Below the pieces are notes generated by a model that was not told the origin of the DNA, did not search any database, and saw nothing but the letters and a program-made list of their open reading frames with translations. A stretch of DNA of 41,153 nt from Ferrithrix thermotolerans DSM 19514 (GTDB lineage Bacteria > Actinomycetota > Acidimicrobiia > Acidimicrobiales > Acidimicrobiaceae), in the NCBI RefSeq assembly GCF_900128965.1, contig NZ_FQUL01000020.1, positions 1 to 41,153 of the forward strand, read 5' to 3'. Both the position numbers and the translations under genes were made by a program. This document shows, piece after piece, positions 2,450 to 21,374 of this stretch. Numbering within the stretch: the first letter of the stretch is position 1; every line of letters begins with the position of its first letter.

Positions 2450-3334
2450 TCAGATTCGTTCAAGATCGTGCCCATCAAAGACACGGCTGATACCAAACTC
2501 TCGAGCGTCATCTTCCATCTCGATGTTTGCCGGAGCGGAGATGGGGAGTGAGGCTGCGTTCAATATATGATCTAACGTTCGATAGTCGCTGGAGGTGTTC
2601 AGAAATAGCTGTGGGTTGCTAAGAACGTAGTGTACCGCACGTCTTATTGCGTCAGCGTGGGTAAGCGGTTCGTACCAGCTGTAGTGAGGGGTGTCAGGAG
2701 AGGTGTTATTCCAGCGGCCCCTGGCGATAGACTTTATCGCTTGCACCGCAACCCCCTGCTTTTCACAAATTACAAGTAGTTCCTCCACGTCCTCTCTGTA
2801 AGAACTATCGGACATCATAGCGTAGTTGTATGGGAAAAGCACTGAGTCGTAAGGGTACTCCTTTAGAGACCTAATGTGCATGGCGGGGATGCGTGTTCCA
2901 TGACCCGTAACACCTATGTAGTCGACTAAGCCCTCGTCCTTTGCCTTTACGAGCGCCTCAAGAGCACCTCCTGTTCTATGTACCTGTTCCCACTCGTCAG
3001 CCTCGACTAAGTTGTGGAGCTGAATTAGATCGACCTTATCGACCCTAAGGCGTGACAAAGAACGCTCTAGAGATCTCCTTGCAGCGTCGGCGTTTCGATC
3101 CTCTGTCTTAGTTGCAAGGAAGAACTTCGACCTATGTTCCTTCATCCATGGACCGATACGCTCTTCAGCGTTTCCATATGAAGCAGCGGTGTCGATGTGA
3201 TTGACCCCATAGCGCACTAAAGTATCAAACACCTCGTCTGCGAAGGCCTGTGAGCAACTGCCTAGACCTGCTGCCCCAAAGATGATCTTGGTGCTCAAGT
3301 GCCCTGTGTTGCCGAATTGCGCTCTAGGAATCAT
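2450..3334 (-). CDS. Aldo/keto reductase family oxidoreductase
   Basis: This 294-residue protein is the right size for a TIM-barrel aldo/keto reductase using NAD(P)H. The catalytic tetrad is visible: Asp48 and Tyr53 in HIDTAASYGNAEERIG, Lys76 in FLATKTEDR and His107 in VDLIQLHNLV. The start region (QFGNTGHLSTKIIFGAAGLG) is typical of the bacterial clade that reduces small aldehydes or ketones. It is transcribed away from the HdeD-like gene, with a 155-base divergent spacer. The substrate cannot be inferred. The ATG at 3334 aligns with the usual N-terminus of the family. Confidence 0.9.
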   Translation of the reverse strand: MIPRAQFGNTGHLSTKIIFGAAGLGSCSQAFADEVFDTLVRYGVNHIDTAASYGNAEERIGPWMKEHRSKFFLATKTEDRNADAARRSLERSLSRLRVDKVDLIQLHNLVEADEWEQVHRTGGALEALVKAKDEGLVDYIGVTGHGTRIPAMHIRSLKEYPYDSVLFPYNYAMMSDSSYREDVEELLVICEKQGVAVQAIKSIARGRWNNTSPDTPHYSWYEPLTHADAIRRAVHYVLSNPQLFLNTSSDYRTLDHILNAASLPISAPANIEMEDDAREFGISRVFDGHDLERI

Positions 3335-3489: not shown

Positions 3490-4071
3490 ATGATGAACAT
3501 GTATCCTAAGCACTACTATCACGGTGACTTTGAAAGCAAAAGCTATGGAGATGCTCACCTACTTTCGCTTCGAAGCGTTGTGCCTAGTCTTGCCACCTTG
3601 CTCCTGGGGGCGATCTTTGTCGCCGTGCCTAGATTTGTTGATACTGCGATCGGGGAGATGTTGGGGCTAGCAGTTGTCTTCCTCGGCCTAATCGTTTTGT
3701 TCGTAACCTCCGTTATTTTGTCCCGTCCCATTGTCTCTATAGGGGGATTTACTGGGGTAGTAATTGCAATCCTCGGTGGGCTTTTCCTCCTCAATCCAAA
3801 GTATGCGTTGGTGCTTGCGGGCTCCCTCACTGGCGTGGGGCTGATATTCCAAGGCGTGATGGAGTTTCGTCTCCGCGCAGCGAGCCCAGCAGCTAACTTT
3901 GCCCGATTCCTTGCAGCGTTAGGCGTCCTCTCGGTGATTGGTGGCACTTTATTACTCGTATTTCCACTACTTACACTTTCGGCACTTACGATGGCAGTTG
4001 GAGTTTGGATCATCGTCGCCTCGACCCTGCGGATATCTTATGGGATGTGGATGAACCTGAGGAGTAGATGA
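3490..4071 (+). CDS. HdeD-like (DUF308) membrane protein
   Basis: This is a 193-residue protein with six predicted membrane helices after a short soluble N-terminus of about 30 residues. The helices are paired and separated by short loops with repeated glycine and LLN/PxxxL patterns (for example GGLFLLNPKYALVLAG and GGTLLLVFPLLTLSAL). This is the layout of the HdeD/DUF308 family. In Escherichia coli HdeD is linked to acid resistance at high cell density, but the biochemical role is unknown, and transferring that role here is inference. The sequence AGGAGATG sits directly at the start, so ATG 3490 or the ATG six bases later (3496) could be used. It is followed by another small membrane protein gene on the same strand. 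Confidence 0.8.
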   Translation: MMNMYPKHYYHGDFESKSYGDAHLLSLRSVVPSLATLLLGAIFVAVPRFVDTAIGEMLGLAVVFLGLIVLFVTSVILSRPIVSIGGFTGVVIAILGGLFLLNPKYALVLAGSLTGVGLIFQGVMEFRLRAASPAANFARFLAALGVLSVIGGTLLLVFPLLTLSALTMAVGVWIIVASTLRISYGMWMNLRSR

Positions 4072-4410: not shown

Positions 4411-5988
4411 CTACTCCCGATGAAGGACGGTGTTGGATCCTTCCTCAGGTCGCATATGTGTCCCGGTGTACTTGAAGAACATGCGGGCTATCTGGGACCG
4501 AAGCAACTTTCCTGATGCGGATCGCGGCATCTCGTCTAAGACCATAATCTCTATATTCACTCCTTCTAAGCTCCACTGATCTTTCAGGCGCCTCCTCAAC
4601 TCAGTCTCTGAGAAAGAGCTGTGATCTGATGGAGTAACAGCTATCAAAAAAGCGTCGGTGCCGTTCATCTGTGAAAGGTCGATAGCTACTACCTCGCCTA
4701 TGAACTCCTCGCTCGCAAGGCCTACCTCCAGTTCCTTGTGTGAGAGACGTCCACCGATTTTTTGCCACCTCTCACTTGTACTTTCTAAGTGAAGGTTCCC
4801 GAGAGCGTCGACAGTGCCGATCTCGCCAGTTCTTAGGACTCCGTCGCCTATAACCTTAGATGTCTCATAGGGTAAGAGCCAATAACCCTTTGTGACAGAA
4901 CGACTCGCAATTGATATTTCAGAGACTCTACCACCTTTGTTGTAAGACTGCTTTGAGTCGAACGATCCATGTATCTCTGTGCCAAAGATAGCCTTACCTC
5001 TGCTTGTGAGATCTTTGGAGCAGGACCATGGATTATCAACAGTGACGATCCCAGAGGCCTCGCTTAGACCGTAGGTGCGCCTTGGGTCTATCCCCATTGA
5101 GTACAGCAGATCGCTCTCCTCTGCACCTAATACTCCCTCGGTGACGAGAGCGTATCTTAGGGACACTGGCTCGACGAGCGCGCGGCGCCTAGCTATCTCC
5201 TGCCAGTTCCTATAAGACATCGACAGCGCTGTGGGCTGGGTGCGATTGATCGCGTCAGCGATTGAGAAAGCGCCTAGATCGTGTTCTATATGAACGGTCC
5301 CTCCAAGATAGAGAAGAGGAAGTACAAAGGTCGTGAGACCCAGAACTGATGAGAGCGGCTCTGCGGTTAATGTATCATCGTTGCTAGAGAGTTCATCTAG
5401 GGTGGCTATCATCGACACCGTATGGCTTTCTAGGTTGCGATGGCTGAGTTGGACAGCTTGTGGTCGAAGTGCCTGGGAGGCCGTATAGGCCAACATGGCC
5501 GTCTCGGTGTCGTCGATGTGGTTACTTTCAAATCTTGGCTTTCCTCTTGCTAGCAGGGCGCTGTAGTCGGCGACGGGTGATCTTGCCATGTTTGTCGTAA
5601 CGATTAGATCCATCTCACAAGATACAGATTTGAGTGCCTTTTGAACAGTTTCGTAGCCGGACTCAGAGGTGAAAAGTACCCTTGGACTGGAATCCTCGAT
5701 GACGAAGGCCAGGTCATCAACTCTTAGTGAAGCCTCGAGGGGGACTACGACTCCGCCGAGTTTCGAAACTGCAAAGAGTATCTCGATCCACTGTGGTGAG
5801 TTCTCTAAAAACAGCGCAACTCGATCGCCTCGACGAACCCCATAAGAGACCAACGAGGTTGCTAGACGATTGCTGTTTGTGTCAAGTTCGGTGTAGGAAA
5901 TAGCTACATTTTTGGTGCTTAGTGCGATCTGATCCCCCGACAACCTAGCTCGTTCCCTTGCCCAGTTGCCTATCCCTCGATCCATCAC
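4411..5988 (-). CDS. AMP-binding (acyl-CoA synthetase-like) protein with degenerate P-loop
   Basis: The 525 residues follow the ANL superfamily of adenylate-forming enzymes (acyl-CoA synthetases and ligases) from end to end. The N-terminal part has GDRVALFLENSPQWIEILFAV, the A5-like motif TYGLSEAS is at about 306-312, and the C-terminal PRSASGKLLRSQI carries the catalytic lysine (Lys494). However, the P-loop that should read TSGTTGxPKG is TASQALRPQA (about residues 169-178), with the glycines and lysine gone, although the flanking YT and QLSHRNL are intact. The TGD motif is TGE, and the GRxKD hinge region is also altered. This suggests a weak or inactive enzyme, or one with a different role. 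A strong AGGAGG lies upstream of the tandem GTG-ATG start (5988 or 5985). It is divergent from marC. Confidence 0.8.
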   Translation of the reverse strand: MMDRGIGNWARERARLSGDQIALSTKNVAISYTELDTNSNRLATSLVSYGVRRGDRVALFLENSPQWIEILFAVSKLGGVVVPLEASLRVDDLAFVIEDSSPRVLFTSESGYETVQKALKSVSCEMDLIVTTNMARSPVADYSALLARGKPRFESNHIDDTETAMLAYTASQALRPQAVQLSHRNLESHTVSMIATLDELSSNDDTLTAEPLSSVLGLTTFVLPLLYLGGTVHIEHDLGAFSIADAINRTQPTALSMSYRNWQEIARRRALVEPVSLRYALVTEGVLGAEESDLLYSMGIDPRRTYGLSEASGIVTVDNPWSCSKDLTSRGKAIFGTEIHGSFDSKQSYNKGGRVSEISIASRSVTKGYWLLPYETSKVIGDGVLRTGEIGTVDALGNLHLESTSERWQKIGGRLSHKELEVGLASEEFIGEVVAIDLSQMNGTDAFLIAVTPSDHSSFSETELRRRLKDQWSLEGVNIEIMVLDEMPRSASGKLLRSQIARMFFKYTGTHMRPEEGSNTVLHRE

Positions 5989-6184
5989 CCCAACCTCCTG
6001 CTTGACCCCAAGGTTCTGATACCTCTAACGTTAGCAATACCACCAAAAACCTACAAGTGCCGATTCGAGCAATGTGAAGGATCAAAGACATCCAAAGACA
6101 ATGCAAATCTTGCATAGGGTGGATTGAGTCGTATATCTAAGAGCTAACTTGTAGGTACCGAATCCCCAGATGGTACGAGGCTAG

Positions 6185-6790
6185 ATGGCAACCTTCAACA
6201 TTAAGTTTTTCACGCAGGTCTTTATCACGTTGCTGGTAATCATGGATCCTTTAGGGAATGTGCCAATATTCCTTTCTCTTACGAGTGGATCTAAGACCTC
6301 CTCCCAGAAGAAGCTTGCATTTCAAGCGGTTCTTGTGGCAGGAGGGGGCATCGGTGTATTTGCACTATTTGGCAAGCAGATACTTGACTACCTAGGCGTT
6401 ACGATCCCAGCGTTACAAGGGTCCGGTGGACTTCTACTGCTTCTCGTGGCTCTAGAGCTCCTTACCGGTCAGGCTTCCAAGCCGACGGCACTTGATGAAG
6501 TCTCTGTGGCGCTTGTTCCTCTAGGCACTCCTCTTATCGCAGGACCAGGCGCGATAGCTGCGATAATCGTCTTTGTAAAGGAGATAAGAGGTGGAGGAGA
6601 CGTAGTAGCCCTCGTCGCTGCGATCCTTTCGGTACTTGTTATTTTGTGGCTATCGCTTAGATTCTCCCTTCAACTTATAAAGATTCTAAAGGAAAGTGGG
6701 ATCATGTTGCTAACCCGGGTCTTTGGACTTCTATTGGCAGCTATCGCTGTTCAGCTGGTTGCAGAGGCTGTTCAGGGCTTTATAAGGTAG
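6185..6790 (+). CDS. MarC family (UPF0056) integral membrane protein
   Basis: This 201-residue protein has six membrane helices and the family's typical segments. These are MDPLGNVPIFLSLT near the N-terminus, SVALVPLGTPLIAGPGAIAA in the middle (the conserved P-L-x-x-P-x-x-x-G-P-G block), and a C-terminal RVFGLLLAAIAVQLVAEAVQGF. The length is usual for the family. MarC proteins were once linked to multiple antibiotic resistance, but that link is not supported, and their transport substrate is uncertain. The ATG at 6185 precedes the first helix directly. The gene is divergent from the AMP-binding protein gene and ends inside a perfect inverted repeat. Confidence 0.88.
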   Translation: MATFNIKFFTQVFITLLVIMDPLGNVPIFLSLTSGSKTSSQKKLAFQAVLVAGGGIGVFALFGKQILDYLGVTIPALQGSGGLLLLLVALELLTGQASKPTALDEVSVALVPLGTPLIAGPGAIAAIIVFVKEIRGGGDVVALVAAILSVLVILWLSLRFSLQLIKILKESGIMLLTRVFGLLLAAIAVQLVAEAVQGFIR

Positions 6791-6859: not shown

Positions 6860-7363
6860 GTGATCGAAGGTTCATTGAAAAGCGATAAGGTGATGCGAGC
6901 GTACGGTAAAACTGTTGTAAGTGCCGTTGTGATTGCCTTTGTGCTTTCGGTTCAGTTTTTGGCCGGAATATGGATGAATCTCTACGATAATATTCCCAAA
7001 GACCATCCCGGCTACAACGATAACAACTATCTAGGGGCATCATACGACATAGTCAAGTGGGGACTGTCCTCGGGTATTACAGCTTTGCAGCTTCACATCG
7101 TACTTGCGAGTATTTTGGCGGTCTCCGTGGTCTATCTTCAGATAGTGGTGGGACCTACTAATTCCAAGGTACTCATTGTGTCAGCTCTGGTGGCGATATC
7201 GTTCTTTTTTCTGGCGTCACTTTATGGCCTAACCTACCTGGATAACTATCAGCGATCAGCCTCGCTCCTCATGGCGGTTGGGTTTTTGGGCTTTACCCTC
7301 ACAGACGTATTTGTTCTAGCCTATGCCCTAAGACTTCGAGGTGTTCCAAGGGAGGCTGTATGA
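6860..7363 (+). CDS. Unknown four-helix membrane protein
   Basis: This is a 167-residue protein with four predicted membrane helices (about 17-40, 71-97, 102-124 and 133-157). A loop of about 30 residues between helices 1 and 2 is rich in Asp, Asn and Tyr (NIPKDHPGYNDNNYLG). A single His (His79, in LQLHIVLA) sits near the outer end of helix 2. I do not recognise an assigned family. The layout of a polar loop followed by a helix with LxLH resembles small haem-associated membrane proteins, but one histidine is not enough to argue haem binding. The start is uncertain: GTG 6860, or a GTG/ATG pair about 30 bases further in. Its stop overlaps the next start by four bases (ATGA), so the two genes are almost certainly cotranslated. 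Confidence 0.7.
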   Translation: MIEGSLKSDKVMRAYGKTVVSAVVIAFVLSVQFLAGIWMNLYDNIPKDHPGYNDNNYLGASYDIVKWGLSSGITALQLHIVLASILAVSVVYLQIVVGPTNSKVLIVSALVAISFFFLASLYGLTYLDNYQRSASLLMAVGFLGFTLTDVFVLAYALRLRGVPREAV

Positions 7364-7956
7364 ACAAGGCTGATGAGGGTCTCGCAGATGCAGTTGAGAT
7401 CGCTGTTGAGGTATTCTTCGCCAAACTGAGTCGCATGCGACTGGTTCTTACCCAGTCCTCCGTCTCTTTTGTCGTGTCTTTAGCTGCTCTAGCTGCAGCG
7501 GTTCTCAGGACATCGGGTCTTGTTTTCGTTGTTATCGTGGCGGCGGTCTTGCTCTTAGGCGAGTATGTGGGATACCGTTACGTGAAAGAGCAAAACATCT
7601 ATGGTTCTAAGGCCTCTTCAGGTGGCTCTTGCGACTCTGGTAAAAGTTCACCATGCGATAGCTGTAGCTCTAAGGGCTCGTCCTGTCTCGGCCTATATCA
7701 AAATGCGCTGTCGCTCAAGATCGCCCGTGCAGAGCAGCAGCAACTCAAGAAGATCTTCTCTTCGCCTCTTTTGGCTCAAGCTGGAGTGCTGTTAGCGATA
7801 GGGGCCGTAGAGTTGATAGCGGTTCTGACGGATTCACTGCATCCGACTTACTCCGGTCTCGTATCTCTGGCCTTTGATCTGACCGCCCTCTTAGGGGTTT
7901 TATGGATGCGACATGGGGCCAAGAAGATCAGTGCGGCAAAGATTACCGAAAAATAA
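7360..7956 (+). CDS. Unknown four-helix membrane protein with central four-cysteine loop
   Basis: This is a 198-residue protein. After an N-terminal amphipathic region come two membrane helices (about 33-50 and 54-72), a soluble loop of about 60 residues, and two more helices (about 138-158 and 165-183). The loop holds four cysteines, Cys91, Cys99, Cys102 and Cys109 (C-x7-C-x2-C-x6-C), in a Ser/Gly/Lys-rich context (SPCDSCSSKGSSC). The spacing could bind a metal or form disulfides. That is inference, and the pattern fits no named zinc or iron-sulfur motif that I know. The start ATG at 7360 overlaps the upstream stop. I cannot name a family. The partner protein and the desaturase downstream suggest a membrane-related role, no more. 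Confidence 0.7.
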   Translation: MNKADEGLADAVEIAVEVFFAKLSRMRLVLTQSSVSFVVSLAALAAAVLRTSGLVFVVIVAAVLLLGEYVGYRYVKEQNIYGSKASSGGSCDSGKSSPCDSCSSKGSSCLGLYQNALSLKIARAEQQQLKKIFSSPLLAQAGVLLAIGAVELIAVLTDSLHPTYSGLVSLAFDLTALLGVLWMRHGAKKISAAKITEK

Positions 7957-8053: not shown

Positions 8054-8827
8054 GTGAATTCATGGATATTAGGGGTCATATTAGGCCTTGCAACAACACA
8101 GCTCGCTGTGATGGCAACGACAATCTATCTGCACAGAGGTTTGGCGCACAAGTCGCTAACGATGGACAAGAGGTTAGCGTTAGTCTTTCGATTAGTTATT
8201 TGGATTACAACCGGTATCCGCCCAAGAGAGTGGGTTGCCGTTCATAGAAAACACCACGCCTTTACCGACGAGGATCCAGACCCACACTCACCATGGGTCC
8301 TAGGTTTTTGGAAGGTTCAGCTTGGAAACGTCATTTACTACAGAAGAGAGGCGAATCGTAGAGCCACGGTCGATAAGTACGCCAAGGACCTTGTGGGCGA
8401 CAAACTCGATGAGAAGCTCTTGGATCGTTCCCTCTTAGGTCTTGGCATTGGAATTGCAATCCTTTACCTCATTGGAGGGTGGGAGGTTGCTCTTGTTGGT
8501 TCCTTGGTACACGTGGTCTCTTATCTTGGAATCTCTGCCGCCGTTAATGCAATCGGCCACACGTACGGAAAGAGGCCCTATCGTAATTTGGCGACAAACA
8601 ACAACTGGCTGGCCCTGATCTCCTTTGGAGAAGGCCTTCATAACAATCACCATGCGGCACCTACGGCTGCAAGACTGTCTTTCGGTAGGCGTGAGTTTGA
8701 TCCGGCATGGGCGGTTATCAAGGTTCTGCTCAAGACCAAGCTTGCAACGGTGAGACACTCCAAGCCTGTCTTTTCTACCAAGTCGGGACAGCCTAACGCG
8801 GTGACTGAAGGGGCTACTCTCGCATAG
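8054..8827 (+). CDS. Acyl-CoA/acyl-lipid fatty acid desaturase
   Basis: This 257-residue membrane di-iron desaturase has all three histidine boxes: HRGLAH (about 27-32), HRKHH (about 64-68) and HNNHH (about 197-201), the pattern of the stearoyl-CoA (delta-9) desaturase branch. Hydrophobic pairs flank the boxes. It would introduce a double bond into a fatty acyl chain using O2 and an electron donor, adjusting membrane fluidity. It is somewhat shorter than the common length of about 300, mainly because the N-terminus before box 1 is short. The start is GTG at 8054, with a weak purine-rich site upstream. Regiospecificity and the electron donor cannot be read from the sequence. Confidence 0.9.
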   Translation: MNSWILGVILGLATTQLAVMATTIYLHRGLAHKSLTMDKRLALVFRLVIWITTGIRPREWVAVHRKHHAFTDEDPDPHSPWVLGFWKVQLGNVIYYRREANRRATVDKYAKDLVGDKLDEKLLDRSLLGLGIGIAILYLIGGWEVALVGSLVHVVSYLGISAAVNAIGHTYGKRPYRNLATNNNWLALISFGEGLHNNHHAAPTAARLSFGRREFDPAWAVIKVLLKTKLATVRHSKPVFSTKSGQPNAVTEGATLA

Positions 8828-13971: not shown

Positions 13972-15756
13972 GTGAAGGGGTATCGGGATTTATTAGTTCA
14001 CTATCGGGCTTTGTGCACTACTATTTGTGCAGTGAATGAAAGAAACTTCGACGAGATGAACGCCATAAAGAGAAGCTTCTTCAAGCTCGAAGAGCTGTTA
14101 GAGGCAAACTACAAGAGGCTCAATCGTCTCAACGTGTTTCCTGTTCCTGACGGCGACACAGGCACCAACATGTTGCTTACGGTAAGGTCGGTGAACGAGG
14201 CTCTAAAGAAGGTTCAAGGACAGGCAGAAGAGGCAGCAGTCCTGGCCAAGACGATCTCAAAGGCTGCGCTTCTAGGTGCGCGTGGCAACTCTGGCGTCAT
14301 CCTCTCGCAGATCATTCAAGGGTTCGTGTCCCATCTCTCATCCTCTATAGAGCGGGTAAAAGATCCCACTGAGCTAGTGAGTGCATGGGCAGAGGCACTG
14401 CAAAAAGCCGCTGACGAAGCCCGTGCAGCTGTACTAAAGCCCATGGAAGGCACCATCTTGACGGTGGCCTCCAGTGCAGCTAAGCAGGCGGTTATAGTCT
14501 CTAAAAGTGCAGGGGCAGATCTAGAGCTGGTGATCAGGGAGTCTCTTGAAAGAGCCCGAAAGACCCTGGCTGAGACACCCAACATGTTAGAGCAGCTAAA
14601 GAAGGCGAACGTAGTGGACTCCGGTGGTGCGGGGTTCGTGCATGTTCTAGAGGCGCTTTACATGGGGTTTTTGGGTAAGGATCTCCCAGACTCCTTGAGA
14701 AGCCACCCTTGGCTCGAAGAAGACGGTGAAGGCGATGCTCATATCTCTGACGAAGTTACATACGTGGACCCAAGCAGCTCGAGTAGAGGACCGAGGTATG
14801 AGGTGATGTTTCTCCTCGAGGCTGACTCCGAAGGTGTTGAAGAGATGAAGAGGAGGTGGGCGGAGATAGGGGACTCAATCGTGGTAGTGGGGTCAGATGG
14901 AGTTTATAACTGCCATATCCACTGTGACGATATTGGAGCGTCGATCGAAAGCGGAATCAGAGTGGGAAGCATTAGCGGAATCAGGGTGTCGGATCTATAC
15001 GAGCTGATCGGCGAGCACGCAATGGAGGTGTTGTCAGATACAGCGACAGAATCGACCGATAACCACGTTCACTCGAGCGTTGAAGCTGGGGATACTGTAT
15101 CGGCTATGGTTGCGGTGGTCAATGGGAGTGGTCTTGCGGAGACTTTGCGCTCTGTTGGGGTAGATGTTCTTGTCGATGGTGGTGAGTCGATGAACCCTTC
15201 TACGGAGGAGCTTCTAAGAGCTATCTCCGAGGCAAGGGGTAGATCGGTGGTTATCTTTCCCAACAGTAAAAATGTGGTTGCAGCGGCGAACCTAGCGAAA
15301 GACCTCTCCCCTAAGGATGTGGAGGTCATCCCTACTAGCTCCGTGCTACAGGCCTTCTCCCTGGCTTTGGACTTTAATCCCGAAAAGACAGCCCAGGAGA
15401 ACGCAGCAGTTCTCAAAGAAAAGATCGACGAGGTTCGCTTCGGCGAAATTGCCTATGCTTCAAGATCAGGTGTTGTCTCCTCTCAGGATGTAAGGTTTGA
15501 AGTTGGCGAGGTTATCGGGATATACCGTTCCAAGGTAGAGGTCGCCAGCCATGACTTAGCGGCAGCGACCCTTGCTCTCTGCGAGGTGATGCTGTGCGAA
15601 GGCGATGAATTGGTCACATTGGTCTATGGGTCTCAGGTTCAAAGAGATGAGGCTGAAAAGATTCAGTCGGAGCTAAGCAGGGCATTTCCCAGTCTCTGCG
15701 TGGATCTTTTGTACGGAGGTCAGCCACACTATCCCTTTTTGATCTCCATTGAGTAA
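13972..15756 (+). CDS. DAK2/DegV-fused fatty acid kinase-like protein (FakA/YloV family)
   Basis: At 594 residues this has the two-part layout of FakA/YloV. An N-terminal DhaL-type ATP-binding domain has NVFPVPDGDTGTNM (Asp60 and Asp62 for Mg2+ binding), GARGNSGVILSQI and DSGGAGFVHVLEAL. It is followed by a middle and a C-terminal domain with GDxxxVVGSDG-like and IYRSKVE segments. FakA phosphorylates fatty acids bound to a FakB carrier, feeding acyl phosphate to PlsX/PlsY. No fakB is seen here, but plsX and acpP lie downstream in the same block. The start is uncertain. GTG 13972 is the longest frame, but family members usually start near MNAIKRSFFKLEELL, which corresponds to ATG 14056. Neither has a strong ribosome binding site. 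Confidence 0.85.
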   Translation: MKGYRDLLVHYRALCTTICAVNERNFDEMNAIKRSFFKLEELLEANYKRLNRLNVFPVPDGDTGTNMLLTVRSVNEALKKVQGQAEEAAVLAKTISKAALLGARGNSGVILSQIIQGFVSHLSSSIERVKDPTELVSAWAEALQKAADEARAAVLKPMEGTILTVASSAAKQAVIVSKSAGADLELVIRESLERARKTLAETPNMLEQLKKANVVDSGGAGFVHVLEALYMGFLGKDLPDSLRSHPWLEEDGEGDAHISDEVTYVDPSSSSRGPRYEVMFLLEADSEGVEEMKRRWAEIGDSIVVVGSDGVYNCHIHCDDIGASIESGIRVGSISGIRVSDLYELIGEHAMEVLSDTATESTDNHVHSSVEAGDTVSAMVAVVNGSGLAETLRSVGVDVLVDGGESMNPSTEELLRAISEARGRSVVIFPNSKNVVAAANLAKDLSPKDVEVIPTSSVLQAFSLALDFNPEKTAQENAAVLKEKIDEVRFGEIAYASRSGVVSSQDVRFEVGEVIGIYRSKVEVASHDLAAATLALCEVMLCEGDELVTLVYGSQVQRDEAEKIQSELSRAFPSLCVDLLYGGQPHYPFLISIE

Positions 15757-20387: not shown

Positions 20388-21374
20388 GTGAAACCCATTG
20401 CCGTTGATCTCATGGGAGGAGATCATGCACCAGCTGCAATAGCCGAAGGACTCGAGCGGGTGTCAAAGGAGAGTCACATACCAATACTAGCGGTCGGTAC
20501 CTCTGAAGCCGTAAGTATGGTGGATGGACTAGACAATGTCACGGTTTTAGAGGCTGCCGAGGTGGTAGAGATGGACGAAGACGCCGCCTACGCAGTGAGA
20601 AGGAAGAAAGACTCGTCCATAGTGCGTTGCGCTGAAGCGGTCCGTGACGGCAGAGCCTCCGCTTTGTTCTCTGCTGGTAATACCGGTGCGGCTATGGCGA
20701 GTTCTTTGTTTAAGATGGGCCGGATCTCAAAGGTCTCCAGACCAGCCATCGCAACCACGATCCCACGTCCGGGCCACTTCGCACCGACAATTTTGTTGGA
20801 CTCTGGCGCAAACGCGGACTGTACCCCCGAATGGTTAGTGCAGTTCGCAGTTATGGGTTCGATCTACTCGGGCCTTAGATTTCAGATTGAAAACCCCAGA
20901 GTTGCAGTCCTTTCCATCGGTGAGGAGGCGGGGAAAGGCAACTCGTTGGTAAAGGAGACCTACGAGCTTTTGTCCAAGGAAGGAAGGATCAACTTCATCG
21001 GTAACTGCGAAGGCAGAGACATTATGGCGGGTGATGTCGACGTGGTAGTTACCGACGGCTTTACGGGAAACGTGGTTCTAAAGACACTAGAAGGTGGTAT
21101 GCGTGCCTTCGCCAAGGCAGCCCTTGGTGCGCTTTCGCCAACGGACGATGCCGATGACCTCTTGACAAAGGCGATGCCCAGACTGACACCACTTATAACT
21201 GAGTTATCTGCGGATACCTATGGGGGAGCTGCTTTGTTGGGTGTGGACGGCCTGTGTCTTATCGGACACGGTTCCTCTGGTGCAGAGGCGATCTTTAACG
21301 CAATTGTAGAGGCAGATAAGATTGCGCAGCTCGGGCTGATCGAAGCGATCAGGACTGCCCTTAGTGGTTCATAG
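20388..21374 (+). CDS. plsX: Phosphate acyltransferase PlsX
   Basis: PlsX converts acyl-ACP and phosphate to acyl phosphate, the donor for the first acylation of glycerol-3-phosphate. The 328-residue protein starts IAVDLMGGDHAPAAIAEGL, the family signature. It continues with FSAGNTGAAMASSLFKMGRI, RPAIATTIP, LLDSGANADC, SIGEEAGKGN, VTDGFTGNVVLKTLEG and ADTYGGAALLGVDGLCLIGHG. The start is GTG 20388, 12 bases after rpmF. The acpP start lies 16 bases past the plsX stop, so its substrate carrier is encoded next door. Confidence 0.97.
   Translation: MKPIAVDLMGGDHAPAAIAEGLERVSKESHIPILAVGTSEAVSMVDGLDNVTVLEAAEVVEMDEDAAYAVRRKKDSSIVRCAEAVRDGRASALFSAGNTGAAMASSLFKMGRISKVSRPAIATTIPRPGHFAPTILLDSGANADCTPEWLVQFAVMGSIYSGLRFQIENPRVAVLSIGEEAGKGNSLVKETYELLSKEGRINFIGNCEGRDIMAGDVDVVVTDGFTGNVVLKTLEGGMRAFAKAALGALSPTDDADDLLTKAMPRLTPLITELSADTYGGAALLGVDGLCLIGHGSSGAEAIFNAIVEADKIAQLGLIEAIRTALSGS

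Follow-up and report, generated by a model that had tools for sequence, protein, structure and literature searches.

A gene of Ferrithrix thermotolerans DSM 19514 encodes a protein with the ANL fold of acyl-CoA synthetases in which several core motifs are altered, and which is rather probably a genus-specific pseudo-acyl-CoA synthetase, kept by selection as a non-catalytic protein. It was analysed within a window of 41,153 nucleotides, the whole stretch of DNA considered here (contig NZ_FQUL01000020.1). A sequence-only reading had preferred a pseudoenzyme to random decay, and this preference is strengthened by orthologues that share locus, intact frame, and altered motifs in four genomes, by the dN/dS of one pair, by a private upstream block, and by the absence of any close homologue with an unaltered loop from the genomes searched. 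Annotated at family level, the gene would pass for an acyl-CoA ligase, probably wrongly.

Fold and core motifs

The minus-strand open reading frame (Table 1) encodes 525 residues without internal stops. Translation more likely starts at the ATG at 5985 (MDRGIG...) than at the GTG at 5988, because the three relatives begin with MDYG and an AGGAGG lies just upstream. The ANL fold is readable, as had been claimed from the letters: PF00501, the AMP-binding fold, spans the N-domain at residues 12-370 (176.5 bits against a cut-off of 29.9, E=9.6e-52), and a PDB sequence search matches residues 1-504 to 8weu (E=6.7e-41), 8weu and 8wev being the best solved relatives. The C-terminal AMP-binding_C domain (presumably PF13193) has no Pfam match at E<=1, yet sequence matching to the PDB and alignment of structures both extend as far as residue 504. 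The best NCBIfam match, NF004837, scores 210 bits and would need 476 to pass its cut-off; the other models among the 25 listed (of 99 matched) likewise fall short of theirs.

An AlphaFold2 model from a 21-row alignment has a pLDDT of 81.0 and a pTM of 0.82, and the presence of ANL proteins with ordinary motifs in that alignment biases it toward a normal ANL fold. Besides the A3 and A8 loops (Table 1), confidence is low at residues 321-325, 343-352, and 514-525. The solved structure closest to the model is 8weu (Z 53.5, 463 residues), and the rmsd of 7.8 may stem from a different domain angle.

Table 1. Coordinates of the gene, its motifs, and its neighbours within the window
Feature	Position	Strand	Evidence
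Putative pseudo-acyl-CoA-synthetase gene, ANL fold	4411..5988	-	ORF translation, PF00501, PDB sequence match, orthologues
A3 P-loop position, YTASQALRPQA (canonical YTSGTTGRPKG), residues 168-178	5455..5487	-	alignment; low pLDDT 171-173
A4 position SSVLGL; SS in place of the conserved FH (TN in three relatives)	5335..5352	-	alignment
TEG where other ANL proteins have the GGA(P) loop; TEG in 4/4 orthologues	5134..5142	-	alignment
A5 YGLSE, residues 306-310, kept	5059..5073	-	alignment; Y, G, L, E in 4/4
A7 TGE, residues 387-389 (canonical TGD/SGD)	4822..4830	-	alignment; D in 2/4 orthologues
A8 position STSERWQKIGG, residues 403-413; R, K, D of DRxKD gone	4750..4782	-	alignment; low pLDDT 404-414
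A10 PRSASGK, residues 488-494, lysine kept	4507..4527	-	alignment; all 7 residues same in 4/4
12-bp block upstream of the gene, gene/MarC intergenic region	6047..6058	-	four-genome alignment
MarC family membrane protein, divergent neighbour	6185..6790	+	conserved synteny
DUF308 protein, convergent neighbour	3490..4071	+	conserved synteny
Aldo/keto reductase	2450..3334	-	conserved synteny

At A3, the P-loop is replaced by TASQALRPQA without a frameshift, as the sequence-only reading had described, and the frame runs through it uninterrupted. The consensus (T/S)SG(T/S)TGxPKG is absent from all four orthologues. The three relatives carry YTTGPALRPKG or YTTGPTLRPKG, retaining T-T-G and R-P-K-G, while LRP is common to all four, T169 and P176 are kept in all four, and the Lys is kept in three. 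A3 is most eroded in the window protein; the losses at A4, A8, and the mid-loop are common to the four. At A4, the aromatic/His signature of the acyl pocket is missing from each of them. The GGA(P) loop of ANL proteins has an adenine-side role, and TEG stands at this position (Table 1). The (S/T)GD of A7 is absent from the window protein, and two relatives have (S)GD.

The A8 of ANL proteins usually reads DRKKDMIITGG. In the four orthologues, its R-x-K-D and GGEN-loop pattern is gone: R404 and K406 are lost throughout, the aligned Asp position holds R, D, H, or N, and the three relatives have unrelated residues at the motif. A5 follows the aromatic-G-x-(A/T)-E pattern with Thr in two of the four, Ser in the window protein, and Val in the remaining one, and PRSASGK of A10 is unchanged in every orthologue. 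The earlier claims that the A10 lysine motif and YGLSE are kept and that the TGD and GRxKD regions are altered are thus borne out. The further claim that loss is limited to nucleotide-binding parts does not hold; the A4 His of the acyl pocket and the hinge, CoA loop, and tunnel of A8 are also gone. Across the 63 columns that are at least 90% conserved in 33 other ANL proteins (counted after dropping L029, a 72-aa fragment), the four orthologues have 27 unchanged, agree on a new residue at 1, and show loss or variation at 35, which include the A4 His and the A8 hinge/CoA loop. They also have 42 clade-specific invariant residues, with TEG in place of GGA.

The motif names used here (A1-A10) are those of PMC8388817, Table 2 of which lists mutants of 4-chlorobenzoate:CoA ligase. 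Those at positions lost in all four orthologues change activity 500-fold (His207), 100-fold (Arg400), and 14-fold (Gly166), corresponding by our own mapping to window residues 214, 404, and 174. At positions lost in the window protein and kept in two or three relatives, the changes in the same table are 1,000-fold (Gly163, window 171), 500-fold (Asp385, 389), and 4-fold (Lys169, 177). Positions kept in all four give 2,000-fold for Thr161, no activity for Pro168, and no change for Tyr304. Thr161 and Pro168, at which mutation is among the worst in that ligase, correspond to T169 and P176, and on this mapping their retention would count against complete inactivity. The kept A5 Tyr is weak evidence either way because, according to the same table (PMC8388817), Tyr304 can be mutated without a change in activity.

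A recognisable A3 loop was taken to be (S/G)-G-(T/S) plus the P-loop Lys. By this definition, all 33 other ANL proteins in the initial alignment have one, as do 60 of 60 further ANL genes of the family, the latter hand-picked from a profile-search listing and hence a non-random draw. Within the genus, it is found in 28 of 30 PF00501 loci (part of 45 matches), the two exceptions being the two focal-gene orthologues in that set.

Milder P-loop variants (YTSGTESRPKG, YTGGTTGRSKG) occur among the 60 family proteins in L163, L167, and L173 and in L171, L174, L178, and L181, with other motifs broadly kept. In the same set, the A8 Asp is absent from L155, L160, and L192; in L155 and L192, the P-loop is intact, the A8 hinge Asp is replaced by Tyr (KTY, KKY), and RH follows A7. 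IMG/VR viral contigs hold 32 acyl-CoA-synthetase loci (L112-L143), many of them at a contig end, which may be either flanking host DNA or auxiliary genes.

Distribution, synteny, and constraint

Among 60 related genomes, clear orthologues are confined to the other three members of the genus, with 43, 42, and 41% identity across ~508 residues. All four genus genomes have intact frames in which A3, A4, and A8 are altered. The next match is 27% identical, and the others are at most 29% identical among the matches listed. A four-row profile run against 42 family genomes scores the focal set at 891-985 bits and the best other protein at 310 bits. With the best three candidates per genome considered, 397 genomes of the order yield nothing above 288 bits beyond the window's own protein, and 396 genomes of the phylum yield nothing at E <= 1e-80 beyond it; these two samples overlap, are drawn from a larger group, and do not include the three other genus genomes. 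The genomes searched (60 related, 42 family, 397 order, 396 phylum) contain no close homologue whose A3 loop is intact, so recent decay in this strain, which the sequence-only reading would have seen in such a homologue, is not indicated. Decay in one strain is ruled out, since most of the lesion is common to the orthologues.

The gene order aldo/keto reductase, DUF308, focal gene, MarC is the same in all four genus genomes, which are draft contigs, the three relatives being metagenome-assembled bins from one metagenome project. Between the window and the relatives, the focal gene is 41-43% identical, as against 50-87% for its three syntenic neighbours. It is not the fastest-evolving gene of the neighbourhood, a description that was dropped because the ORF at 7360-7956 is just 38% identical in G001. 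This ORF is the second of two adjacent ones at 6860-7956 (+) (167 and 198 aa) without a Pfam match, the first having no match in G001 at that threshold. Outside the genus, no ANL gene adjoins MarC at any of 17 MarC loci in 16 family genomes (flanks of at most ~1.5 kb, several shorter), and no MarC match is present in another 22 of the 42 family genomes. An ancestral, syntenic active gene beside MarC was therefore dismissed for these 17 loci.

In a tree, the four focal proteins form one group (100/100) with a stem of 2.07 and a long window branch. L029 was left out, as were 12 of the 30 paralogue loci: L072 and L083 (focal duplicates), L057-L060, L066, L070, and L077 (660-686 aa), L080 (672 aa), the short L084, and L076.

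The dN/dS check that the sequence-only reading had proposed points to purifying selection. In the pair G002/G003, the focal gene has values of 0.17 (NG86), 0.24 (YN00), and 0.21 (ML); this is the one unsaturated pair, and the values of every other pair are saturated or undefined and were not used. For comparison, G002/G003 values are 0.01-0.02 in MarC, 0.07-0.12 in the reductase, and 0.09-0.13 in DUF308. The focal gene is constrained, but more loosely than the reductase and DUF308 by a factor of about two and more loosely than MarC by a factor of ten or more. In neutral simulations of the G002 gene, whether 0.1, 0.3, or 0.6 changes per site were introduced, at least one stop arose in 500 of 500 runs, and the four observed frames contain none.

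Constraint is uneven along the protein. Among the three relatives, residues 1-165 are 72-85% identical and A8 is 33-48% identical, the lowest of the regions compared, while in the A10 region 8 of 12 columns are invariant in all four. Against the window protein, identity is 26-32% in the C-domain, 15% in the tail, and 24-43% in A8, the C-domain and tail thus being as variable as A8 or more so. This pattern would fit an A8 that is no longer needed and an N-domain and A10 that are.

Upstream of the gene, a 12-bp block, ACTTGTAGGTTT, is identical in all four genomes, while just 23% of the intergenic columns are invariant overall. A 12-column invariant run was obtained in 0 of 20,000 column shuffles. 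The block has exactly one exact copy in each of the four genomes (reversed control, 0), and this single copy rules out a regulon. It is followed by TTGnTA, which resembles an extended -10, and it is not flagged by a sigma-70 scan of three of the four intergenic regions. The block is possibly a promoter or operator; the promoter reading follows from its position and the TTGnTA, not from the scan result.

Possible roles and alternative explanations

As judged from the motifs, the protein would descend from a FadD/MenE-like acyl-CoA synthetase paralogue in which the acyl-pocket His (A4), the hinge/CoA loop (A8), and part of the ATP-phosphate loop (A3) disappeared before the genus radiated or soon after it began to do so, and it would have been retained since then as a non-catalytic protein. 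From these losses, we infer that neither acyl-AMP nor acyl-CoA is made any longer, and that the protein probably binds or regulates something in place of the usual chemistry. The sensor, scaffold, or CoA/acyl-binding roles named in the sequence-only reading are candidates. As a ligand-binding regulator, the protein would use the retained N-domain pocket, with A5 and the clade-specific TEG, together with the A10 lysine to hold an acyl or adenylate-like ligand between them. As a partner subunit, its better-kept N-domain would pair with an active paralogue and tune it. Taken singly, either of these roles is a weaker proposition and an unlikely one. The wider picture of a genus-specific, free-standing non-catalytic ANL family, with a dedicated conserved promoter element and a pocket turned ligand sensor or regulatory subunit for active paralogues, is tentative and somewhat doubtful. 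A fatty acid uptake route might provide the context for the pseudo-ligase. The same window encodes a FakA-like fatty acid kinase (13972-15756, +), a fatty acid synthesis protein (PF02504, which we take to be PlsX-like; 20388-21374, +), and a fatty acid desaturase (8054-8827, +).

The strict retention of the A10 lysine is odd for a protein without any adenylation and counts against a non-catalytic role. Some nucleotide binding could survive in the relatives, since T-T-G and R-P-K-G persist in three of them and (S)GD at A7 in two. The kept T169 and P176 likewise move weight toward the alternative that the protein is still an enzyme of weak or changed chemistry, in which a remodelled pocket would perform one half-reaction (adenylation alone, or transfer of the acyl group of an acyl-adenylate made beforehand) or use another donor. 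Such an enzyme, although improbable overall, would suit the strict conservation of the A10 lysine, the A5 Glu, Thr169, and Pro176, the invariant PRSASGK, the partly kept P-loop of the three relatives, and the 42 clade-specific residues with TEG where GGA is usual, and the title of Wang et al. 2018 offers the precedent of a non-adenylating acyl-CoA ligase. The loss of the A8 Arg and Lys, of the hinge Asp (three of four), and of the GGEN loop speaks against the CoA step, and the A3 and A4 changes speak against the adenylation step.

Four intact frames free of stops, against the neutral expectation, a dN/dS well below 1, and the conservation of A10, the N-domain, and the upstream block make it very unlikely that the gene is a pseudogene in slow decay, whether in the window strain or genus-wide, although its low identity relative to its syntenic neighbours, its long stem and long window branch, and a P-loop most eroded in the window species would be expected of one. 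Least probable is a frame, assembly, or alignment artefact, such as a local frameshift pair garbling the loop. The draft state of the contigs and the single metagenome project behind three relatives could raise that suspicion, but four separate genomes carry related letters at the altered loop (LRP in all), the residues on either side align gap-free, and the frame need not be changed. A non-catalytic protein maintained by selection has the most support.

Relation to known ANL proteins

Pseudoenzymes are common. A literature search covering titles and the starts of abstracts, mostly of papers outside subscription, returned no described clade of free-standing bacterial pseudo-acyl-CoA synthetases. 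A free-standing putative pseudo-ligase in every genome of the genus examined, with a private upstream element, is nevertheless a neat if modest find. With motif loss advanced to different degrees, the four orthologues make a tractable system in which to ask why an ANL fold is retained once its chemistry has gone.

By sequence, the nearest proteins overall are FadD/MenE-like ligases, the exact place of the focal group among the ANL families being unsure because of the long branches. FadD/PRK06187-type long-chain acyl-CoA synthetases and the feruloyl-CoA synthetase of Amycolatopsis thermoflava (8weu/8wev) resemble the window protein in two-domain fold and length and differ from it in that its A3, A4, A7, and A8 are altered.

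PtmA2 has lost the adenylation half-reaction and still performs thioesterification, the CoA step, which requires A8. Its structures (5upq, 5ups, 5upt) match the window protein in sequence with E=1.8e-14. It is, we assume, the non-adenylating acyl-CoA ligase that Wang et al. reportedly described in 2018, which would be the nearest known precedent. The likeness lies in an ANL protein without the adenylation half-reaction and the difference in the A8 of the window protein, which is gone; this loss would argue against a PtmA2-type thioesterification of an acyl-adenylate.

Catalytically dead adenylation domains, with an ANL fold and degraded core motifs, occur in NRPS megaenzymes. The window protein is like them in fold and in the degradation of its motifs. 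In contrast to these domains, it is free-standing and encoded by a single gene with its own conserved upstream block, in all four of the genus genomes examined.
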